Shown here one piece after another: positions 20,536 to 60,900 of a DNA stretch of 64,000 nt. This stretch comes from Cellulomonas alba (lineage in GTDB: Bacteria; Actinomycetota; Actinomycetes; Actinomycetales; Cellulomonadaceae). Location: contig NZ_JAUCGQ010000001.1 in assembly GCF_030362835.1 (NCBI RefSeq), positions 1,653,461 to 1,717,460 of the forward strand, read 5' to 3'. Numbering within the stretch: the first letter of the stretch is position 1; each line of letters starts with the position of its first letter. The translations under genes and the position numbers were made by a program. Under the pieces are notes generated by a model that saw nothing but the letters and a program-made list of their open reading frames with translations, had not been told where the DNA came from and made no database searches.

Positions 20536-20913
20536 TCAGAGCGCGCCCGCGGCGACCTTGCGGAGCAGCTCGTCGGTCTCCGGGTCGTCCATCAGCTCGT
20601 GGACCTCCTGCGCGCACCGGCAGCCGACGGCGATCTTCGCGGCCCACGCCTCGGCCTCCTCGCGCGTCGCCACCTCGATGACCGAGAACCCGCCGATGAC
20701 CTCCTTGGTCTCCGGGAACGGGCCGTCGGTGACGGTGCCGTCGGTCCCGACGATCGTCGCGCGCTGCCGCTGCAGCCCGGCGCCGTACACCCACACCCCG
20801 GCGCGCACGGCCTCCTCGACCACCTCGTGCGAGGCGCGGCCGACGTCCTCCCAGTCCGCGTCGGGGATGTGGTCCATCGCGCCGTCGTTGAACGAGATCA
20901 GGTACTGCGTCAT
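20536..20913 (-). CDS. YCII-related (DGPF) protein, orphan copy
   Basis: 125 residues of the YCII/DGPF family: YLISFNDGAM at the N-terminus, TDGPFPETKEVIGGFSVIEV and a C-terminal helical segment with RCAQEVHEL. Function unresolved; family members are small ferredoxin-like-fold proteins often controlled by ECF42 sigma factors. This copy has no adjacent sigma gene on its strand, but carries the same TGTCGG-N17-CGTCGC promoter as the sigma-linked copy at 22368. ATG preceded by GGGAG. Confidence 0.88.
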   Translation of the reverse strand: MTQYLISFNDGAMDHIPDADWEDVGRASHEVVEEAVRAGVWVYGAGLQRQRATIVGTDGTVTDGPFPETKEVIGGFSVIEVATREEAEAWAAKIAVGCRCAQEVHELMDDPETDELLRKVAAGAL

Positions 20914-20963
20914 CGCCTGGCTCCCTCGCTCCGGCGGCCCCCTGCGGGCCGCGCCTCATCTGC

Positions 20964-20992
20964 GCGACGAACGGCTCGGCCGGGATCCGACA
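20964..20992 (-). promoter_or_regulatory. ECF42-type promoter before the orphan YCII gene
   Basis: On the minus strand TGTCGG (20987-20992) is followed after exactly 17 nt by CGTCGC (20964-20969), 51 nt from the start codon end. Spacing and sequence match three other sites in the window, all before YCII genes. Confidence 0.65.
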
Positions 20993-21030: not shown

Positions 21031-21747
21031 TCACCTCAGCCGGGCACCGCCCTCGACGTGGATGGTCTCGCCCGAGACGAAGCCCGCGCCGAGCAGCCAC
21101 ACGACGGCCGCGGTGACGTCGTCCGCGGAGCCGGCGCGCCCGACGAGCGTGCCCCCGGCGGCCTGCGCGAGGAACGCGGGCTTGCCGGCGCCGAGACCGT
21201 CCCAGCTGCCCGAGTCGACGATCCCGGGCGATACCGCGTTGACGCGCACGGGCGCGAGCTCGGCCGCGAGGTGCTGGACAGCGAACGCGACCGCGCCGTT
21301 CGCGATGCCCATGACGGCGTAGCCGGGCGACGGGTTCCACGCGGCGACGCCTGAGAAGAGCACGATCGAGCCGTGCGCCGGCAGGCCGCGGGCCGTGTGC
21401 TTCGCGAGCATCAGCGGGCCGATCACCTTCGCCTCGAACGCCGCCACCGTCCGGTCGTGGTCGAGCTCGGTGACAGGCACGTTGTGGTGCGCCGACGCGA
21501 GCACGACGACGTGGTCGAGCGGGCCGGCCTCGCGGAGCGCCGCGACGATGCTCACCTCGTCCGTGACGTCGACCCGGACCGACTTCGCGCCCTCGATGGT
21601 CCCCGCAGCGGCGGCGGCGCGAGCCGCGTCGCGTGCCCCGACGACCGCTGTCGCGCCCTCCGCGGCGACCGCGCGGGCGACCGCGAGGCCGAGGTCGCGG
21701 GCCCCGCCCACGACGAGCACGCGCTGACCGGTGAGCTGCTGGTTCAT
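21031..21747 (-). CDS. SDR family protein with altered active site
   Basis: 238 residues with the short-chain dehydrogenase fold: cofactor loop VVGGARDLGLAVARAV, NNAG replaced by VLASAHHN, and a C-terminal VSGETIHVEGG. The Ser (VLFSGVAAW) and Tyr (SPGYAVMG) are present, but the Lys of YxxxK is Gly, so classical hydride transfer is doubtful. Transcribed divergently from an HxlR-type regulator with a GGTAT-N7-ATACC palindrome between, the usual arrangement for a regulator and its target. Confidence 0.85.
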   Translation of the reverse strand: MNQQLTGQRVLVVGGARDLGLAVARAVAAEGATAVVGARDAARAAAAAGTIEGAKSVRVDVTDEVSIVAALREAGPLDHVVVLASAHHNVPVTELDHDRTVAAFEAKVIGPLMLAKHTARGLPAHGSIVLFSGVAAWNPSPGYAVMGIANGAVAFAVQHLAAELAPVRVNAVSPGIVDSGSWDGLGAGKPAFLAQAAGGTLVGRAGSADDVTAAVVWLLGAGFVSGETIHVEGGARLR

Positions 21748-21837: not shown

Positions 21838-21884
21838 GTTACTTCAACGAAACCGGGACGGCTGCGGCGGAGGCAGAGCGACCC

Positions 21885-22250
21885 ATGGGCAAGGCGTACG
21901 ACGTGATGGCGGCCACCTGCCCCAGCCGGACGGTGCTGCACCGGATCGGCGCGCGGTGGACGGTCTTCGTCGTGCTCGCGCTCGGCGACGGACCGCGGCG
22001 CTTCACGCAGCTCAAGACGCGCATCGAGGGCATCACGCCCAAGGTGCTGACCGAGACGCTGCGCGCGCTCGAGGCCGACGGGCTCGTCCGCCGGACGTCG
22101 CTCCCAGGGAACCCGCCGGGCGTCGAGTACGCGCTGACGGACCTCGGCCGCTCGCTCGGCGGTCCCATGCGCGCCGTGTCCGAGTGGGCCGAGTCGCACG
22201 TGCCCGAGATCCTCGCGGCGCGCGCCCGGTACGCCGACGCGGAGGCGTGA
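21885..22250 (+). CDS. HxlR family transcriptional regulator
   Basis: 121 residues with the HxlR winged-helix fold: the conserved Cys (ATCPSRTVLHRIGARWT), FTQLKTRIEGITPKVLTETLRALEADGLVRR and the wing VEYALTDLGRSL. Such regulators sense electrophiles or oxidants through that Cys. ATG at MGKAYD with GGCGGAGG upstream; the longer open frame would run over the operator. Likely controls the divergent SDR gene. Confidence 0.9.
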   Translation: MGKAYDVMAATCPSRTVLHRIGARWTVFVVLALGDGPRRFTQLKTRIEGITPKVLTETLRALEADGLVRRTSLPGNPPGVEYALTDLGRSLGGPMRAVSEWAESHVPEILAARARYADAEA

Positions 22251-22295: not shown

Positions 22296-22324
22296 TGTCG
22301 GATCGACGCGGGCCCGTTCGTCGG
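22296..22324 (+). promoter_or_regulatory. ECF42-type promoter of the first YCII-sigma operon
   Basis: TGTCGG (22296-22301), 17-nt spacer, CGTCGG (22319-22324), 44 nt before the ATG of the first YCII gene. It drives the three-gene unit that ends with the ECF42-like sigma gene, implying autoregulation. Confidence 0.68.
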
Positions 22325-22367
22325 GAGAATGAGGGCGACGCGGGGTCGCCCACCGAAGGAGCAACGC

Positions 22368-22727
22368 ATGGCGCGCTACCTGATCTCGTTCGACCGCGGA
22401 TGGATGACCTTCCCGGAGGAGGACCTGCCCGCCGTCGCAGCCGCGGCTCGGGCCGCGGTCCAGGAGGCGGTCGACGCCGGGGTGTTCGTGTTCACGAGCG
22501 GCATCGGGGACACCGAACCCACGACGCTCGTCGGGGTGGACGGCGCCGTGACCGACGGGCCGTACCCGGAGACGAAGGAGCAGATCGGCGGCTTCGCGAT
22601 CGTCGACGTCCCCAGCCGGGACGAGGCGATCGCCTGGGCGGCCAAGATCGCCGCCGCGTGCCGGTGCTCGCAGGAGGTCCGGCAGCTGCTGCCGGACCCG
22701 CGCGTCGACGCGTGGCTCGCCCGCTGA
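22368..22727 (+). CDS. YCII-related (DGPF) protein
   Basis: 119 residues: RYLISFDRGWM, TDGPYPETKEQIGGFAIVDV and KIAAACRCSQEVRQLLPDP. Close relative of the orphan at 20536 (same motifs in the same order). Ribosome site GAAGGAG lies 7 nt before the ATG. First gene of an operon with a second YCII gene (17 bp later) and an ECF sigma factor. Confidence 0.9.
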   Translation: MARYLISFDRGWMTFPEEDLPAVAAAARAAVQEAVDAGVFVFTSGIGDTEPTTLVGVDGAVTDGPYPETKEQIGGFAIVDVPSRDEAIAWAAKIAAACRCSQEVRQLLPDPRVDAWLAR

Positions 22728-22743: not shown

Positions 22744-23130
22744 ATGACCCGGTACATGCTCTCCGTGTACGGCCCCGCCGAGCGGACCGCGTACGGCAGC
22801 TACCCGTCGAAGGAGGACATGCTCGAGTCGTTCGCCGACACGGGCGCGTTCAACGACCGGCTCGTCGCCGACGGCTACTTCGTGTTCGCCGACGGCCTGG
22901 CGGAGGTCGCCACCGCGACGGTGGTCGACGGCCAGGGCGACGAGCCCGTGCTCAGCGACGGGCCGTACCTCGAGGCGAAGGAGCACCTCGGCGGCTTCTG
23001 GATCATCGACGCGCCCGACCTGGACGTCGCGCTGCGGCTCGCGGCCGAGGGGTCGCGCGCCTGCCGCGGCAAGGTCGAGGTGCGGCCGTTCTCGACCCCG
23101 GATGAGCTGCAGGCGCTGCTCGACTCGTGA
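22744..23130 (+). CDS. YCII-related (DGPF) protein
   Basis: 128 residues with RYMLSVYGPAERTAYG, LSDGPYLEAKEHLGGFWIID and a PFS/DELQALLDS tail; more distant from the preceding YCII protein. GAGGGAGG precedes the ATG. Its stop codon overlaps the GTG start of the sigma gene (GTGA), so sigma synthesis is coupled to it. Confidence 0.9.
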   Translation: MTRYMLSVYGPAERTAYGSYPSKEDMLESFADTGAFNDRLVADGYFVFADGLAEVATATVVDGQGDEPVLSDGPYLEAKEHLGGFWIIDAPDLDVALRLAAEGSRACRGKVEVRPFSTPDELQALLDS

Positions 23131-24380
23131 CGCCGTCCCCCGTCGACGACGCGATCGTCCGCGCGCACCGTGAGGAGTGGGCGCGGGTGGTCGCGACGCT
23201 GACCCGGCGCTTCGGCGACCTCGGGCTGGCGGAGGACTGCGCCGCCGAGGCGTTCGCGACGGCGGTCGAGCGCTGGCCGCGCGACGGCGTGCCGCCGAAT
23301 CCCGGCGCGTGGCTCACCACGACGGCCGCACGCAAGGCGATCGACCGCCTGCGCCGCGAGTCCCGGCGTGACGAGAAGCACCAGGAGGCGCGCCTCTTGT
23401 TCGACGACGATCCCCCGGCACCGCGCGGCGCGATCGACGACGACCGGCTGCGGCTCCTCTTCACGTGCTGCCACCCTGCGCTCGCGCAGGAGACGCGCGT
23501 GGCGCTCACGCTGCGGATGGTCGGCGGCCTGACCGTGCCCGAGATCGCGCGCGCGTTCCTGGTGCAGGAGACCGCGATGGGGCAACGGATCACGCGCGCG
23601 AAGGCGAAGATCAAGGCCGCCCACGTGCCGTACCGCGTGCCGACGGCGGACGACCTGCCCGCGCGGCTCGACGGCGTGCTGACCGTCCTCTACCTCGTCT
23701 TCAACGAGGGCTACCTCGCGTCGGGCCCCGGCACCGACCCTGTGCGGCACGACCTGACCGGCGAGGCGATCCGGCTGACGCGGCTGGTGCGCGAGCTGCT
23801 GCCCGGCGCCGGCGAGGCCACGGGCCTGCTCGCGCTCATGCTCCTGACGGAGGCTCGCGGCCCGGCGCGCGTGTCGTCGACCGGCGAGCTCGTCACGCTC
23901 GACGAGCAGGACCGCGGCGCGTGGGACCGGGACCTGATCGACGAGGGCCACGCGCTCGTCCGCGACACGCTCGTCGCCGTCGCCGCCGGCGGCCCGCCGC
24001 CGGGGCGGTACCAGCTGCTCGCCGCGATCAACGCGGTCCACACCTACGCGCGCGACGCGCACGACACCGACTGGTCGCAGGTCGCGACGCTCTACGACCG
24101 GCTCGCGGCCCTCGACCCGTCGCCCGTCGTCGCACTCAACCGCGCGGTCGCGGTCGCCCAGGTGGACGGGCCGGAGGTCGGCCTGGCGCTCGTCGACCGG
24201 CTGCCGCTCGACGGCTACCACGCGTTCCACGCGACCCGCGCCGACCTGCTGCGTCGCCTGGGCCGCAGCGCGCAGGCGCGCGACGCCTACGACCGCGCGA
24301 TCGAGCTGGCCGGCAACACCGCCGAGGCCGCCTACCTCAGGCGCCGGCGCGGCCAGCTCGGCGCGACGGACGCGGGGTAG
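23127..24380 (+). CDS. ECF42-like RNA polymerase sigma factor
   Basis: 417 residues. Sigma region 2 is about 8-75 (LAEDCAAEAFATAVERWP), region 4 about 105-165 (RVALTLRMVGGLTVPEIARAFLVQETAMGQRITRAKAKI). A C-terminal extension of about 240 residues carries the DUF6596 signature (LYLVFNEGYLAS) and a TPR-like tail (YDRLAALDPSPVVALNRAVAVAQ). This is the ECF42 layout, where the extension rather than an anti-sigma factor is thought to control activity and the targets are DGPF genes, as in this operon. Confidence 0.93.
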   Translation: MTPSPVDDAIVRAHREEWARVVATLTRRFGDLGLAEDCAAEAFATAVERWPRDGVPPNPGAWLTTTAARKAIDRLRRESRRDEKHQEARLLFDDDPPAPRGAIDDDRLRLLFTCCHPALAQETRVALTLRMVGGLTVPEIARAFLVQETAMGQRITRAKAKIKAAHVPYRVPTADDLPARLDGVLTVLYLVFNEGYLASGPGTDPVRHDLTGEAIRLTRLVRELLPGAGEATGLLALMLLTEARGPARVSSTGELVTLDEQDRGAWDRDLIDEGHALVRDTLVAVAAGGPPPGRYQLLAAINAVHTYARDAHDTDWSQVATLYDRLAALDPSPVVALNRAVAVAQVDGPEVGLALVDRLPLDGYHAFHATRADLLRRLGRSAQARDAYDRAIELAGNTAEAAYLRRRRGQLGATDAG

Positions 24381-58521: not shown

Positions 58522-58550
58522 TGTCGAGCGGGGTGGGGGCGGCGCGTCAT
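58522..58550 (+). promoter_or_regulatory. ECF42-type promoter of the first YCII gene, second operon
   Basis: TGTCGA (58522-58527), 17-nt spacer, CGTCAT (58545-58550), about 51 nt before ATG 58602. Confidence 0.7.
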
Positions 58551-58601
58551 CTCGGCGACCGGGCTCGCGCCGCGCGGCCCGACGGACGGATGGAGACCCT
58601 C

Positions 58602-58958
58602 ATGAACGCCACGTACCTGGTGCTGCTCCTCGGCGACGAGCGCGAGTGGTCCGCGCTCGACGGGCCCGGACGGGACGCGCTCGACGCGTCGCACCGCGAG
58701 TTCACGGCCGTCGCCCCGACGCGCGGGCACACGATCCTCGAGGGACGCGAGCTCGCGCTCCCGTCGACGGCGCTCGTGGTGCGGCGGGCGCGGGACGGCG
58801 AGGCGACGGTGAGCGAGGGCCCGTTCGCAGAGACGGTCGAGCAGGTGGGCGGGTACTACCTGGTGCGCACGGCCGACCCGAACGATCTGGCGCAGCTCGT
58901 CGCGGACACCCTGACGGAGCACGCCGACATCCGCCTCATGCTGCACACCGAGGGCTGA
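58602..58958 (+). CDS. YCII-related (DGPF) protein
   Basis: 118 residues: YLVLLLGDEREWSALDG, SEGPFAETVEQVGGYYLVRT. The DGPF core appears as EGPF. The second of two close in-frame ATGs is chosen because GGAG lies 6 nt before it. Its own ECF42-type promoter is upstream, and a second such promoter lies between it and the next YCII gene. Confidence 0.9.
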   Translation: MNATYLVLLLGDEREWSALDGPGRDALDASHREFTAVAPTRGHTILEGRELALPSTALVVRRARDGEATVSEGPFAETVEQVGGYYLVRTADPNDLAQLVADTLTEHADIRLMLHTEG

Positions 58959-58974
58959 CCCGACTCGGTCCGGC

Positions 58975-59003
58975 TGTCGATTTCCCGGACCCTCGCGCGT
59001 CAT
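58975..59003 (+). promoter_or_regulatory. ECF42-type promoter of the second YCII gene, second operon
   Basis: TGTCGA (58975-58980), 17-nt spacer, CGTCAT (58998-59003), 47 nt before ATG 59051. The core hexamers equal those at 58522 exactly, though the spacers differ completely. Confidence 0.72.
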
Positions 59004-59050
59004 CCCCCCAGACGGGCACAGTGGGAGGCCCGCAGACGAGAGGACCCGCC

Positions 59051-59458
59051 ATGAGCACGTACATCGTCCTGCTGCACTCCGACGAGGCAGCCTGGGAGAA
59101 CGCCGACGAGGCGACGCGTGAGCGCGTCCGCAGCGCGCACGTGGAGTTCGCGCAGCGGGCCATCGGGGCCGGCCACCGGATCCTGGGCGGCGAGGAGCTG
59201 GACCGCTCCCGCACCGCGACGGTCGTGCGCCGCGACGGCGAGGGCCGGTTCGAGACGAGCGAGGGCCCGTACGCCGAGGCCGTCGAGCAGGTCGGCGGGT
59301 TCTACGCGGTCGAGACGGACGACCCGGCGGGCCTCGCCGAGATCGTCCAGGTCCTCGCGTGGCACGACGGCGCCGCGTGCGAGATCCGCCCGATCATCGA
59401 CCACTCGATGGACGTGGACCTCGGAGCGCGCGCGCAGGCCGCGGCGGGGGTGTCGTGA
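59051..59458 (+). CDS. YCII-related (DGPF) protein
   Basis: 135 residues: TYIVLLHSDEAAWENAD, SEGPYAEAVEQVGGFYAVET and CEIRPIIDHSMDVDLG. Close relative of the preceding YCII protein (same order of motifs and length). Its stop overlaps the GTG start of the sigma gene (GTGA). Confidence 0.9.
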   Translation: MSTYIVLLHSDEAAWENADEATRERVRSAHVEFAQRAIGAGHRILGGEELDRSRTATVVRRDGEGRFETSEGPYAEAVEQVGGFYAVETDDPAGLAEIVQVLAWHDGAACEIRPIIDHSMDVDLGARAQAAAGVS

Positions 59459-60900
59459 CGCAGGACCCTCCCCACGCGGAGCTCGACGCCGACGCCGGCG
59501 CGGGGGACGGACCCGGTGCGGGACCCGAACCCGCCGGCGCGGACGTCGACGCCGCACCCCCTCGTGCAGCGGGCCCGGCCGGCGACGCCCCCGCGGCCGA
59601 GGCGGGCGCCGCCGAGCGACCCGCCCCCGGCGCCAGTGCGCCCGAGGTCGCCTCGGCGATCGCGGAGGCGTGGACGACGAGCTGGTCGCGCCTCGTGGCG
59701 CTGCTCATCGGCCAGTACGCGCGGCCCGACCTCGCGGAGGACGCGGTCGCCGACGCGTTCGAGCAGGCGGCCCGCCACTGGCCGACCGCGGGCGTCCCGC
59801 GCAACCCGGGCGCGTGGCTGCTCACCACGGCACGCCGGCGCGTGCTGGACAGGCTGCGCACCGAGCAGGTGCACCGGCGCAAGGAGCCCCTGATGGTCGT
59901 CGACGACGAGATGCGCGCCCTCGCGGCGGCCGCCGTCGACCCCGGCGCGCACGTCGCGGACGAGCAGCTGCGGCTCGTCTTCGCGTGCTGCCACCCGGCG
60001 ATCGCGCCGGACGACCGCGTCGCGCTGACGCTGCGGTTCGTCGTCGGCCTCTCGACCGCCGAGATCGCGCGGCTGCTGCTGGTCCAGGAGACGGCGCTCG
60101 CGGCGCGCATGACGCGGGCCAAGAAACGGCTCGCGGCGTCCGGCATCCCGTTCGCGGTGCCCGCCCCCGAGCGGCTCGACGACCGCCTCGACGTGGTGGC
60201 GACCGTCGCGTACCTGCTGTTCACGGCGGGCTACCAGCCCGCGCCGGGCGAGCGGCCGCTGCGCGTCGACCTCGGCGACGAGGCGATCCGGCTGCTGCGC
60301 TCGCTCGACACCCTGCTGCCGGACCGCGCCGTGGTGCGCGCGCTGCTCGCCCTGCTGCTCCTGCAGCACTCGCGGCGCGACGCGCGGCTCGACCGCGACG
60401 GCGCGATCGTGCTGCTCGCGGACCAGGACCGGTCGCGGTGGCACGCCGACGAGATCGCGGAGGGCGTGGCGCTCCTGACGACGCTCGAGCCCGACGTCCC
60501 GACGTCCCGGCTCGCGGAGGACTACCGCGTGCAGGCGCTCGTCGCGGCCGAGCACGCGACGGCGGCGTCGGCGGATGCGACGCGCTGGGACGTGATCGCG
60601 GCCCACTACGCGCACCTCGAGGCACTCAGCGGGTCGCCGGTCGTGCGGCTCGCGCGCGCGGTCGCGGTCGCGGAGGCGCAGGGCGCGGACGCGGGGCTCG
60701 CACTGCTCGAGGGGCTGGACGACGCGCTGCCGCGCCATCACCGCGTCCCGGCCGTGCGCGCCGAGCTGCTGGTGCGCGTGGGGCGCACGGCCGACGCGGC
60801 GTCGCAGTACCGGCGCGCGCTCGACCTCGTCACGAACGCGACCGAGCGCACGCACCTCGAGGCGCGCCTCGCGGCGCTGGGCGGGTCCCCGACCGAGTGA
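59455..60900 (+). CDS. ECF42-like RNA polymerase sigma factor, second copy
   Basis: 481 residues. A 62-residue acidic/Ala-Pro-rich N-terminal extension precedes region 2 (about 70-140, LAEDAVADAFEQAARHWP), region 4 (about 175-230, VALTLRFVVGLSTAEIARLLLVQETALAARMTRAKKRL), then the DUF6596-like domain (YLLFTAGYQP) and TPR-like tail. Conserved CCHPAI between regions is shared with the 23127 sigma. Both sit last in YCII operons with the same promoter signature. Confidence 0.92.
   Translation: MTQDPPHAELDADAGAGDGPGAGPEPAGADVDAAPPRAAGPAGDAPAAEAGAAERPAPGASAPEVASAIAEAWTTSWSRLVALLIGQYARPDLAEDAVADAFEQAARHWPTAGVPRNPGAWLLTTARRRVLDRLRTEQVHRRKEPLMVVDDEMRALAAAAVDPGAHVADEQLRLVFACCHPAIAPDDRVALTLRFVVGLSTAEIARLLLVQETALAARMTRAKKRLAASGIPFAVPAPERLDDRLDVVATVAYLLFTAGYQPAPGERPLRVDLGDEAIRLLRSLDTLLPDRAVVRALLALLLLQHSRRDARLDRDGAIVLLADQDRSRWHADEIAEGVALLTTLEPDVPTSRLAEDYRVQALVAAEHATAASADATRWDVIAAHYAHLEALSGSPVVRLARAVAVAEAQGADAGLALLEGLDDALPRHHRVPAVRAELLVRVGRTADAASQYRRALDLVTNATERTHLEARLAALGGSPTE

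Follow-up and report, generated by a model that had tools for sequence, protein, structure and literature searches.

The window, that is, the whole 64,000-nucleotide stretch of Cellulomonas alba DNA that was analysed, contains around 58 kb two YCII genes followed by a gene for an ECF42-type sigma factor, with one promoter-like site before each YCII gene:

58522-58550, plus strand: P1, TGTCGA-N17-CGTC-AT (TGTCGA at 58522-58527, CGTC at 58545-58548), putative promoter upstream of YCII-1
58602-58958, plus strand: YCII-1, 118 aa (PF03795, 29.9 bits, cut-off 24)
58975-59003, plus strand: P2, TGTCGA-TTTCCCGGACCCTCGCG-CGTC-AT (TGTCGA at 58975-58980, CGTC at 58998-59001), putative promoter with letters canonical for the clade of the 58-kb sigma factor
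59051-59458, plus strand: YCII-2, 135 aa (PF03795, 36.6 bits), its stop overlapping the sigma start
59455-60900, plus strand: ECF42-type sigma factor, 481 aa, last gene of the P1/P2 operon (PF04542, PF08281, PF20239)

P1 and P2 are 453 bp apart, as the first-pass annotation had described, and its distance of 47-51 nt to the YCII starts was also reproduced: the ATGs at 58602 and 59051 are located 51 and 47 nt past CGTCAT, respectively (53 and 49 nt past CGTC), and both proteins match PF03795 above the cut-off. The closest named relatives of the sigma factor are from Cellulomonas (66-80% identity). It carries an N-terminal extension of approximately 65 residues before sigma2 (59455-59650), rich in D, A, P and G. 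A methyltransferase gene (PF08241; 57635-58414, minus strand) is divergent from the P1 operon and may share its intergenic region.

A second sigma operon and a further YCII gene on the opposite strand are found between 20 and 25 kb:

22296-22322, plus strand: putative promoter TGTCGGATC...CGTT-CGTC of the other sigma operon of the window, 45 nt before the ATG
22368-22727, plus strand: YCII gene, 119 aa, first in the second sigma operon (PF03795, 45.8 bits)
22744-23130, plus strand: YCII gene of the same operon (PF03795, 44 bits)
23127-24380, plus strand: second ECF42-type sigma factor, 417 aa (PF04542, PF08281, PF20239; TPR_2 below its cut-off)
20966-20992, minus strand: putative promoter TGTCGGATC...CGTT-CGTC, same code as at 22296, 52 nt before a YCII gene
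20536-20913, minus strand: YCII gene downstream of this promoter (PF03795, 47.5 bits)

The last of these sites had been placed at 20964; it is present on the minus strand but starts at 20966, and reaches 20964 only with two flanking bases included. The second sigma factor lacks the N-terminal extension of the 58-kb one. Directly before its operon, a short-chain dehydrogenase gene (21031-21747, minus strand) is divergent from a gene for an HxlR-type regulator (21882-22250, plus strand).

Both sigma factors of the window match sigma2 (PF04542) and sigma4 (PF08281) above the cut-off and have a C-terminal extension in which PF20239 (DUF6596) matches; for TPR_2, the 23127 sigma scores 19.8 (cut-off 27), and the matches listed for the 59455 sigma do not include it. 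Two YCII genes directly precede each sigma gene, an arrangement that recurs in relatives, and the window sites have the TGTC..-N17-CGTC promoter type of ECF42. Streptomyces venezuelae ECF42 factors are said to activate DGPF genes from a TGTCGA / CG(A/T)C signature.

In the 3.80-Mb genome from which the window comes, TGTCGR-N17-CGTC has 25 matches, compared with 21 for N14 and 17 for N20, two control spacings that keep the codon phase of N17; the motif alone is thus barely over-represented. A reversed-pattern control (5 vs 25) was discarded as too lenient, because the counts are driven by codon phase (1497 matches for N10-N24 together), and was replaced by the N14 and N20 controls. The first-pass annotation had staked its claim on the motif being rarer at random positions; its density proved to be nearly background, but the claim is rescued by placement before YCII genes. 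An exact N17 site precedes the start of six of the 11 genomic YCII genes by 39-53 nt; comparing the listed places by eye put none of the N14 and N20 matches (38 in all) closer than 1 kb to a YCII match. The rare feature is the position of the motif before YCII genes, not the motif itself.

Two further N17 sites lie 47 nt before a glyoxalase gene (C1:166060-166086, minus strand, locus L001) and 52 nt before a RibD_C gene (C1:689836-689862, minus strand, locus L004). The latter has the code of the 22-kb sites, with a YCII gene shortly downstream, and is likely a further target of the 22-kb sigma factor. The near forms TGTCGA-N17-CGTG and TGTCGA-N17-CGAC precede two more YCII genes, each heading the operon of another sigma factor; the genome encodes four DUF6596 sigma factors. 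A SAM riboswitch (RF00162, 46.2 bits, gathering threshold 44.4; C1:2019328-2019425, L232:1329-1426, minus strand) is located a short way upstream of, and opposite to, the ECF42 operon at C1:2020k.

Conservation was assessed using 194 sigma genes, reduced to 177 non-redundant ones (125 from Cellulomonas and 52 from elsewhere). A full-score site was present 28-75 nt upstream of 84 of the 200 YCII starts that precede ECF42 sigma genes, compared with 0/202 in each of two controls, one shifted into the gene and the other on the reverse strand. Sites with a score of 7 were found at 37 YCII starts (4 in the shifted and 14 in the reverse-strand control), and 79 of the 200 starts scored under 7; before the -10 letters were relaxed, the best score had been 5 or 6 or less at 72/200. 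We then considered orthologs of the 58-kb sigma factor (at least 60% identity; 42 non-redundant Cellulomonas loci, 1700 nt scanned in each). Exact TGTCGA-N17-CGTC occurs on the sense strand in 36/42 loci and on the antisense strand in 0/42, and N17 is also the spacing of the Sinorhizobium meliloti ECF42 promoters tabulated with mapped starts (PMC6180224), which together bear out the earlier proposal that P1 and P2 are promoters of the ECF42 type serving a YCII operon that includes a sigma gene. The exact site is absent from the scanned stretch in six of these loci. Outside Cellulomonas, unbiased counting returned TGTCC-N18-CGTC as the top dyad (22/52 loci), with the same geometry as at P1 and P2; unrestricted counting upstream in Cellulomonas was swamped by dyads that we took for YCII coding sequence and was informative only outside this genus. 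That P1 and P2 belong to ECF42 biology of a known kind is well supported.

The two sites differ in how closely they follow their orthologs. Over 49 ortholog sites the consensus of the extended -10 region is C-T-C-G-C-G-CGTC-AT; P2 carries this CTCGCG-CGTC-AT and its spacer matches the ortholog consensus at 13/17 positions, compared with 6/17 for P1. Judged by these letters, P2 appears to be the conserved canonical promoter and P1 a diverged second copy. It is conceivable, although we consider it doubtful, that P2 alone works, P1 being degenerate or a coincidental match, with YCII-1 read from elsewhere: the P1 spacer and the bases before its -10 are off the consensus, and the hairpin in its leader (see below) is weak. 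On the other hand, P1 has the full TGTCGA...CGTCAT letters with CGTC 53 nt before an ATG, and two exact sites, 453-1247 bp apart, are found in 13 of the 42 ortholog loci, ten of which have a YCII-like start after each site.

The first-pass annotation had also combined the two 58-kb and the two 22-kb sites into a single regulon, which does not agree with their letters: the sites at 22296 and 20966 (TGTCGGATC...CGTTCGTCG) read TGTCGG-ATC...CGTT-CGTC-G, the clade code of the other sigma factor, whereas the 58-kb pair reads TGTCGA...CGTC-AT. Each clade has letters of its own: TGTCGA...CTCGCG-CGTC-AT for the 58-kb sigma, mostly TGTCGG or TGTCGT...CGTT-CGTN for the 22-kb sigma, TGTCGA...CGTT-CGAC for the C1:1649k sigma, TGTCGA...CGTT-CGT[AG] for the C1:2020k sigma, and TGTCC[AG]...CGTC-AT in Bacteroidota. 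When mapped on a tree of the 148 sigma factors (out of 232) that had a promoter call, the -10 class changes 17 times, compared with a shuffled mean of 68.3 and minimum of 60 (148 rows, 100 shuffles), and the -35 class changes 14 times, compared with a mean of 50.3 and minimum of 44 (145 rows). Promoter letters track the sigma tree across these 148 sigma factors. A few calls are likely wrong and kinship of the neighbouring DNA contributes, so the test measures agreement of letters rather than recognition. The opposite arrangement, in which the four ECF42-type sigma factors cross-read one promoter class and the four window sites form one regulon, would explain why TGTCGR-N17-CGTC, exact or nearly so, recurs at all of them, but the -35 letters, the -10 letters and the bases before the -10 all follow the sigma clades, and we regard it as unlikely. 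Instead, promoter codes would differ slightly from one ECF42 paralog to the next, and the 22-kb pair would accordingly belong to the other sigma factor of the window.

Base preferences downstream of the -10 suggest where transcripts begin. Across 136 actinobacterial leaders in two groups, a pyrimidine (T or C) occupies the eighth nucleotide after CGTC in 91-92% and a purine (G or A) the ninth in 92-97%. For SMc01149 of S. meliloti, which is an ECF42 target, the start mapped by both RNA-seq and 5'-RACE likewise falls on the ninth nucleotide, counted by eye (PMC6180224). Starts 5-8 nt after CGTC had been expected earlier; the base preferences and the SMc01149 start predict the ninth nucleotide instead:

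58557, plus strand: predicted start of P1, ninth nucleotide after CGTC
59010, plus strand: predicted start of P2, ninth nucleotide after CGTC
22331, plus strand, and 20957, minus strand: predicted starts of the 22-kb promoters, ninth nucleotide after CGTC

A G-rich stretch with YGAG near the predicted start (offsets 4-10 after CGTC) is recurrent in actinobacterial ECF42 leaders, including those that have no hairpin.

Between the -10 and the ATG, many of these leaders contain a short hairpin. We counted perfect stems of at least 5 bp by loop length and compared the counts with dinucleotide shuffles (n=200); leaders were taken at a site threshold of 7/8 in the first set and a looser 6/8 in the second, and loops with pairing end letters were excluded, loop letters being otherwise unused. 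The 66 Cellulomonas leaders yielded 22 stems with a 5-nt loop compared with 2.7 expected (largest shuffle 9), 15 of which start 12-13 nt after the -10. Loops of 3 nt gave 9 stems compared with 4.1 expected, and the other loop lengths from 4 to 12 stayed within the shuffles. The 5-nt loop was similarly prominent in a thinned Cellulomonas set (53 leaders, 16 vs 2.3 expected) and in other actinobacterial genera (34 leaders, 10 vs 1.3 expected, all starts at 10-14). No such enrichment was seen among other genes (324 leaders, 27 vs 20.5, inside the shuffles), where the anchor was a roughly called start codon and not a promoter, nor in other phyla (18 leaders, 0 vs 1.2 expected); the hairpin was found in 0/20 leaders from outside Actinomycetota. 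Relatedness was addressed by weighting 136 leaders by similarity cluster at offsets 9-16, which gave 20.3 vs 0.53 with 75 clusters (largest of 200 shuffles 2), 12.7 vs 0.36 with 49 (largest 3) and 3.4 vs 0.16 with 21 (largest 3). When mismatches were allowed, 64 of the 136 leaders qualified, compared with 6.2 in letter shuffles.

The hairpin keeps a more constant distance to the promoter than to the translation start. Measured from the -10, the interquartile range of the loop centre is 20-21 nt in 37 distinct stems (full range 11-33, sd 3.3); measured to the ATG, it is 28-33 nt (full range 18-51, sd 6.9). Twenty-three of the 37 stems begin 12-13 nt after CGTC, the ninth nucleotide being the predicted start. 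Loop letters also recur in the 33 stems that start at 9-16: R at the first position in 32 (69% in shuffles), C at the second in 23 (28%), C or A at the third in 26, G at the fourth in 21 (42%) and G at the fifth in 29 (34%). Actinobacterial ECF42 leaders are enriched for a position-locked hairpin with a 5-nt, R-C-M-G-G-like loop. Five of the ten leaders examined in the genome of the window reach a hairpin score of 4, and the window itself provides both perfect and imperfect cases:

22333-22351, plus strand: predicted leader hairpin GGGCGAC-GCGGG-GTCGCCC, perfect 7 bp
20934-20952, minus strand: predicted leader hairpin GCGGCCC-GCAGG-GGGCCGC, perfect 7 bp
58562-58580, plus strand: weak pentaloop hairpin candidate in the P1 leader (score 4.8; RNAfold gives another structure as the minimum)
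59013-59031, plus strand: imperfect P2 leader hairpin CGGGCAC-AGTGG-GAGGCCC (score 2.2, threshold 4)

Several orthologs have the counterpart GGGCAC-AGTGG-GTGCCC in their P2 leader.

Other hairpin tests gave weaker results. Folding energy gave a weak signal (mean z -0.34, p<0.05 in 4/65 Cellulomonas leaders; controls +0.17 and 0/51), as did stems of at least 6 bp with any loop (23/65 vs 13/51 controls), and these controls, YCII starts without a scored site, are poor because they include real promoters with other letters; loop length and position were used instead. In a fixed-column pairing test at 70% identity, the antidiagonal centred at 21 leads both in Cellulomonas and in the other genera. 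Each set taken singly was reached by the largest of 60 permutations (28.9 vs 40.4 in Cellulomonas; 20.0 vs 21.1 in the others), and the pooled value exceeded all 60 (48.5 vs 33.5); pooled at 60% identity it did not (25.1 vs 30.7), and a different antidiagonal ranked first at 50%, so that this test holds for the pooled set with light thinning only. The ECF41-type motif TGTCACA-N16-CGTC, tried as a promoter-anchored hairpin control, was dropped since its matches in 22/60 genomes look like chance. Rfam searches of nine loci (E up to 1) returned four matches, none on a leader.

Inverted repeats beside promoters are often operators, and the position of this one follows the promoter, as would be expected if it were a DNA site for a dimeric regulator and not an RNA hairpin. 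We find this improbable, because the arm sequences differ widely between operons while pairing and loop length are kept (34 distinct examples, chosen for pairing). Least plausible is that the pentaloop hairpins arise artefactually from the high G+C content of the leaders and from kinship among the sequences. The weak energy signal and the fading of the strict column test would fit this view, but the 5-nt loop stands out (3 nt slightly), is replicated in other genera, is not enriched in the 324 control leaders and withstands cluster weighting.

Taken together, we favour, with a probability of about 0.8, self-activation of the ECF42 operon via P1 and P2, with paralog-specific codes, starts at the ninth nucleotide and a pentaloop hairpin protecting the mRNA. 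The sigma factor encoded at the operon end (59455-60900) would read P1 and P2 as -35/-10 promoters, autoregulation being the natural reading. Active sigma factor would raise transcription of its own gene and of the two YCII genes, in a positive feedback loop entered once upstream of each YCII gene. Counting against such feedback, overexpression of RpoE10 in S. meliloti left the first gene of the operon encoding it uninduced; the motif there overlaps the mapped start (PMC6180224). Transcripts would start at the ninth nucleotide after CGTC, and many actinobacterial ECF42 transcripts would then carry the 5-nt-loop hairpin approximately 4 nt from their 5' end. There the hairpin would most likely guard the mRNA against decay from the 5' end, which we infer as its simplest role since the stem lies so close to the predicted start and before the RBS. 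A protein might also recognise the loop, given that certain of its letters recur. We tentatively raise the possibility that the start-locked R-C-M-G-G pentaloop is a regulon-wide RNA tag, common to paralogs with differing promoters, for a trans-acting protein or for the sigma factor's own TPR extension acting on nascent RNA.

These observations have several implications. A single genus offers many ECF42 paralogs with promoter letters that follow their clade, a natural set for studying promoter recognition and for building orthogonal sigma/promoter pairs. A position-locked hairpin shared across a sigma regulon points to a further level of control after initiation. Neither the clade-specific codes nor the start-locked pentaloop hairpin was found in the literature searched; key ECF42 papers lay outside that search, so absence of the leader hairpin of ECF42 operons from print is not established.

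ECF42 factors with YCII neighbours have been described in Streptomyces venezuelae (Sven_0747, Sven_4377, Sven_7131), Pseudomonas putida (ECF-10) and S. meliloti (RpoE10). Typical of this group is a TPR-rich C-terminal extension of about 200 residues, which is reported to be required for activity, without a separate anti-sigma factor (PMC6180224, PMC8999054); YCII proteins have been suggested in a review to take part in ECF42 regulation (PMC8999054), and the S. meliloti targets include glyoxalase-like genes (PMC6180224). As far as the consulted portions of these sources go, the C. alba genome shares with the known systems sigma2 and sigma4 followed by a long C-terminal extension, adjoining YCII genes, TGTC..-N17-CGTC promoters and a glyoxalase gene among the likely targets, and it differs from their descriptions by two promoters within an operon, several paralogs with separate codes side by side and the leader hairpin. 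Stabilising stem-loops at the 5' terminus are known from the Escherichia coli ompA and papA and the Bacillus subtilis aprE leaders (titles cited in PMC3997798). Judged from these titles, the ECF42 hairpin, for which stabilisation is only proposed, has in common with them a stem-loop a few nucleotides from the 5' end (predicted here) and before the RBS; unlike them, it spans a sigma regulon, has an R-C-M-G-G-type 5-nt loop and keeps a near-fixed distance from the promoter.
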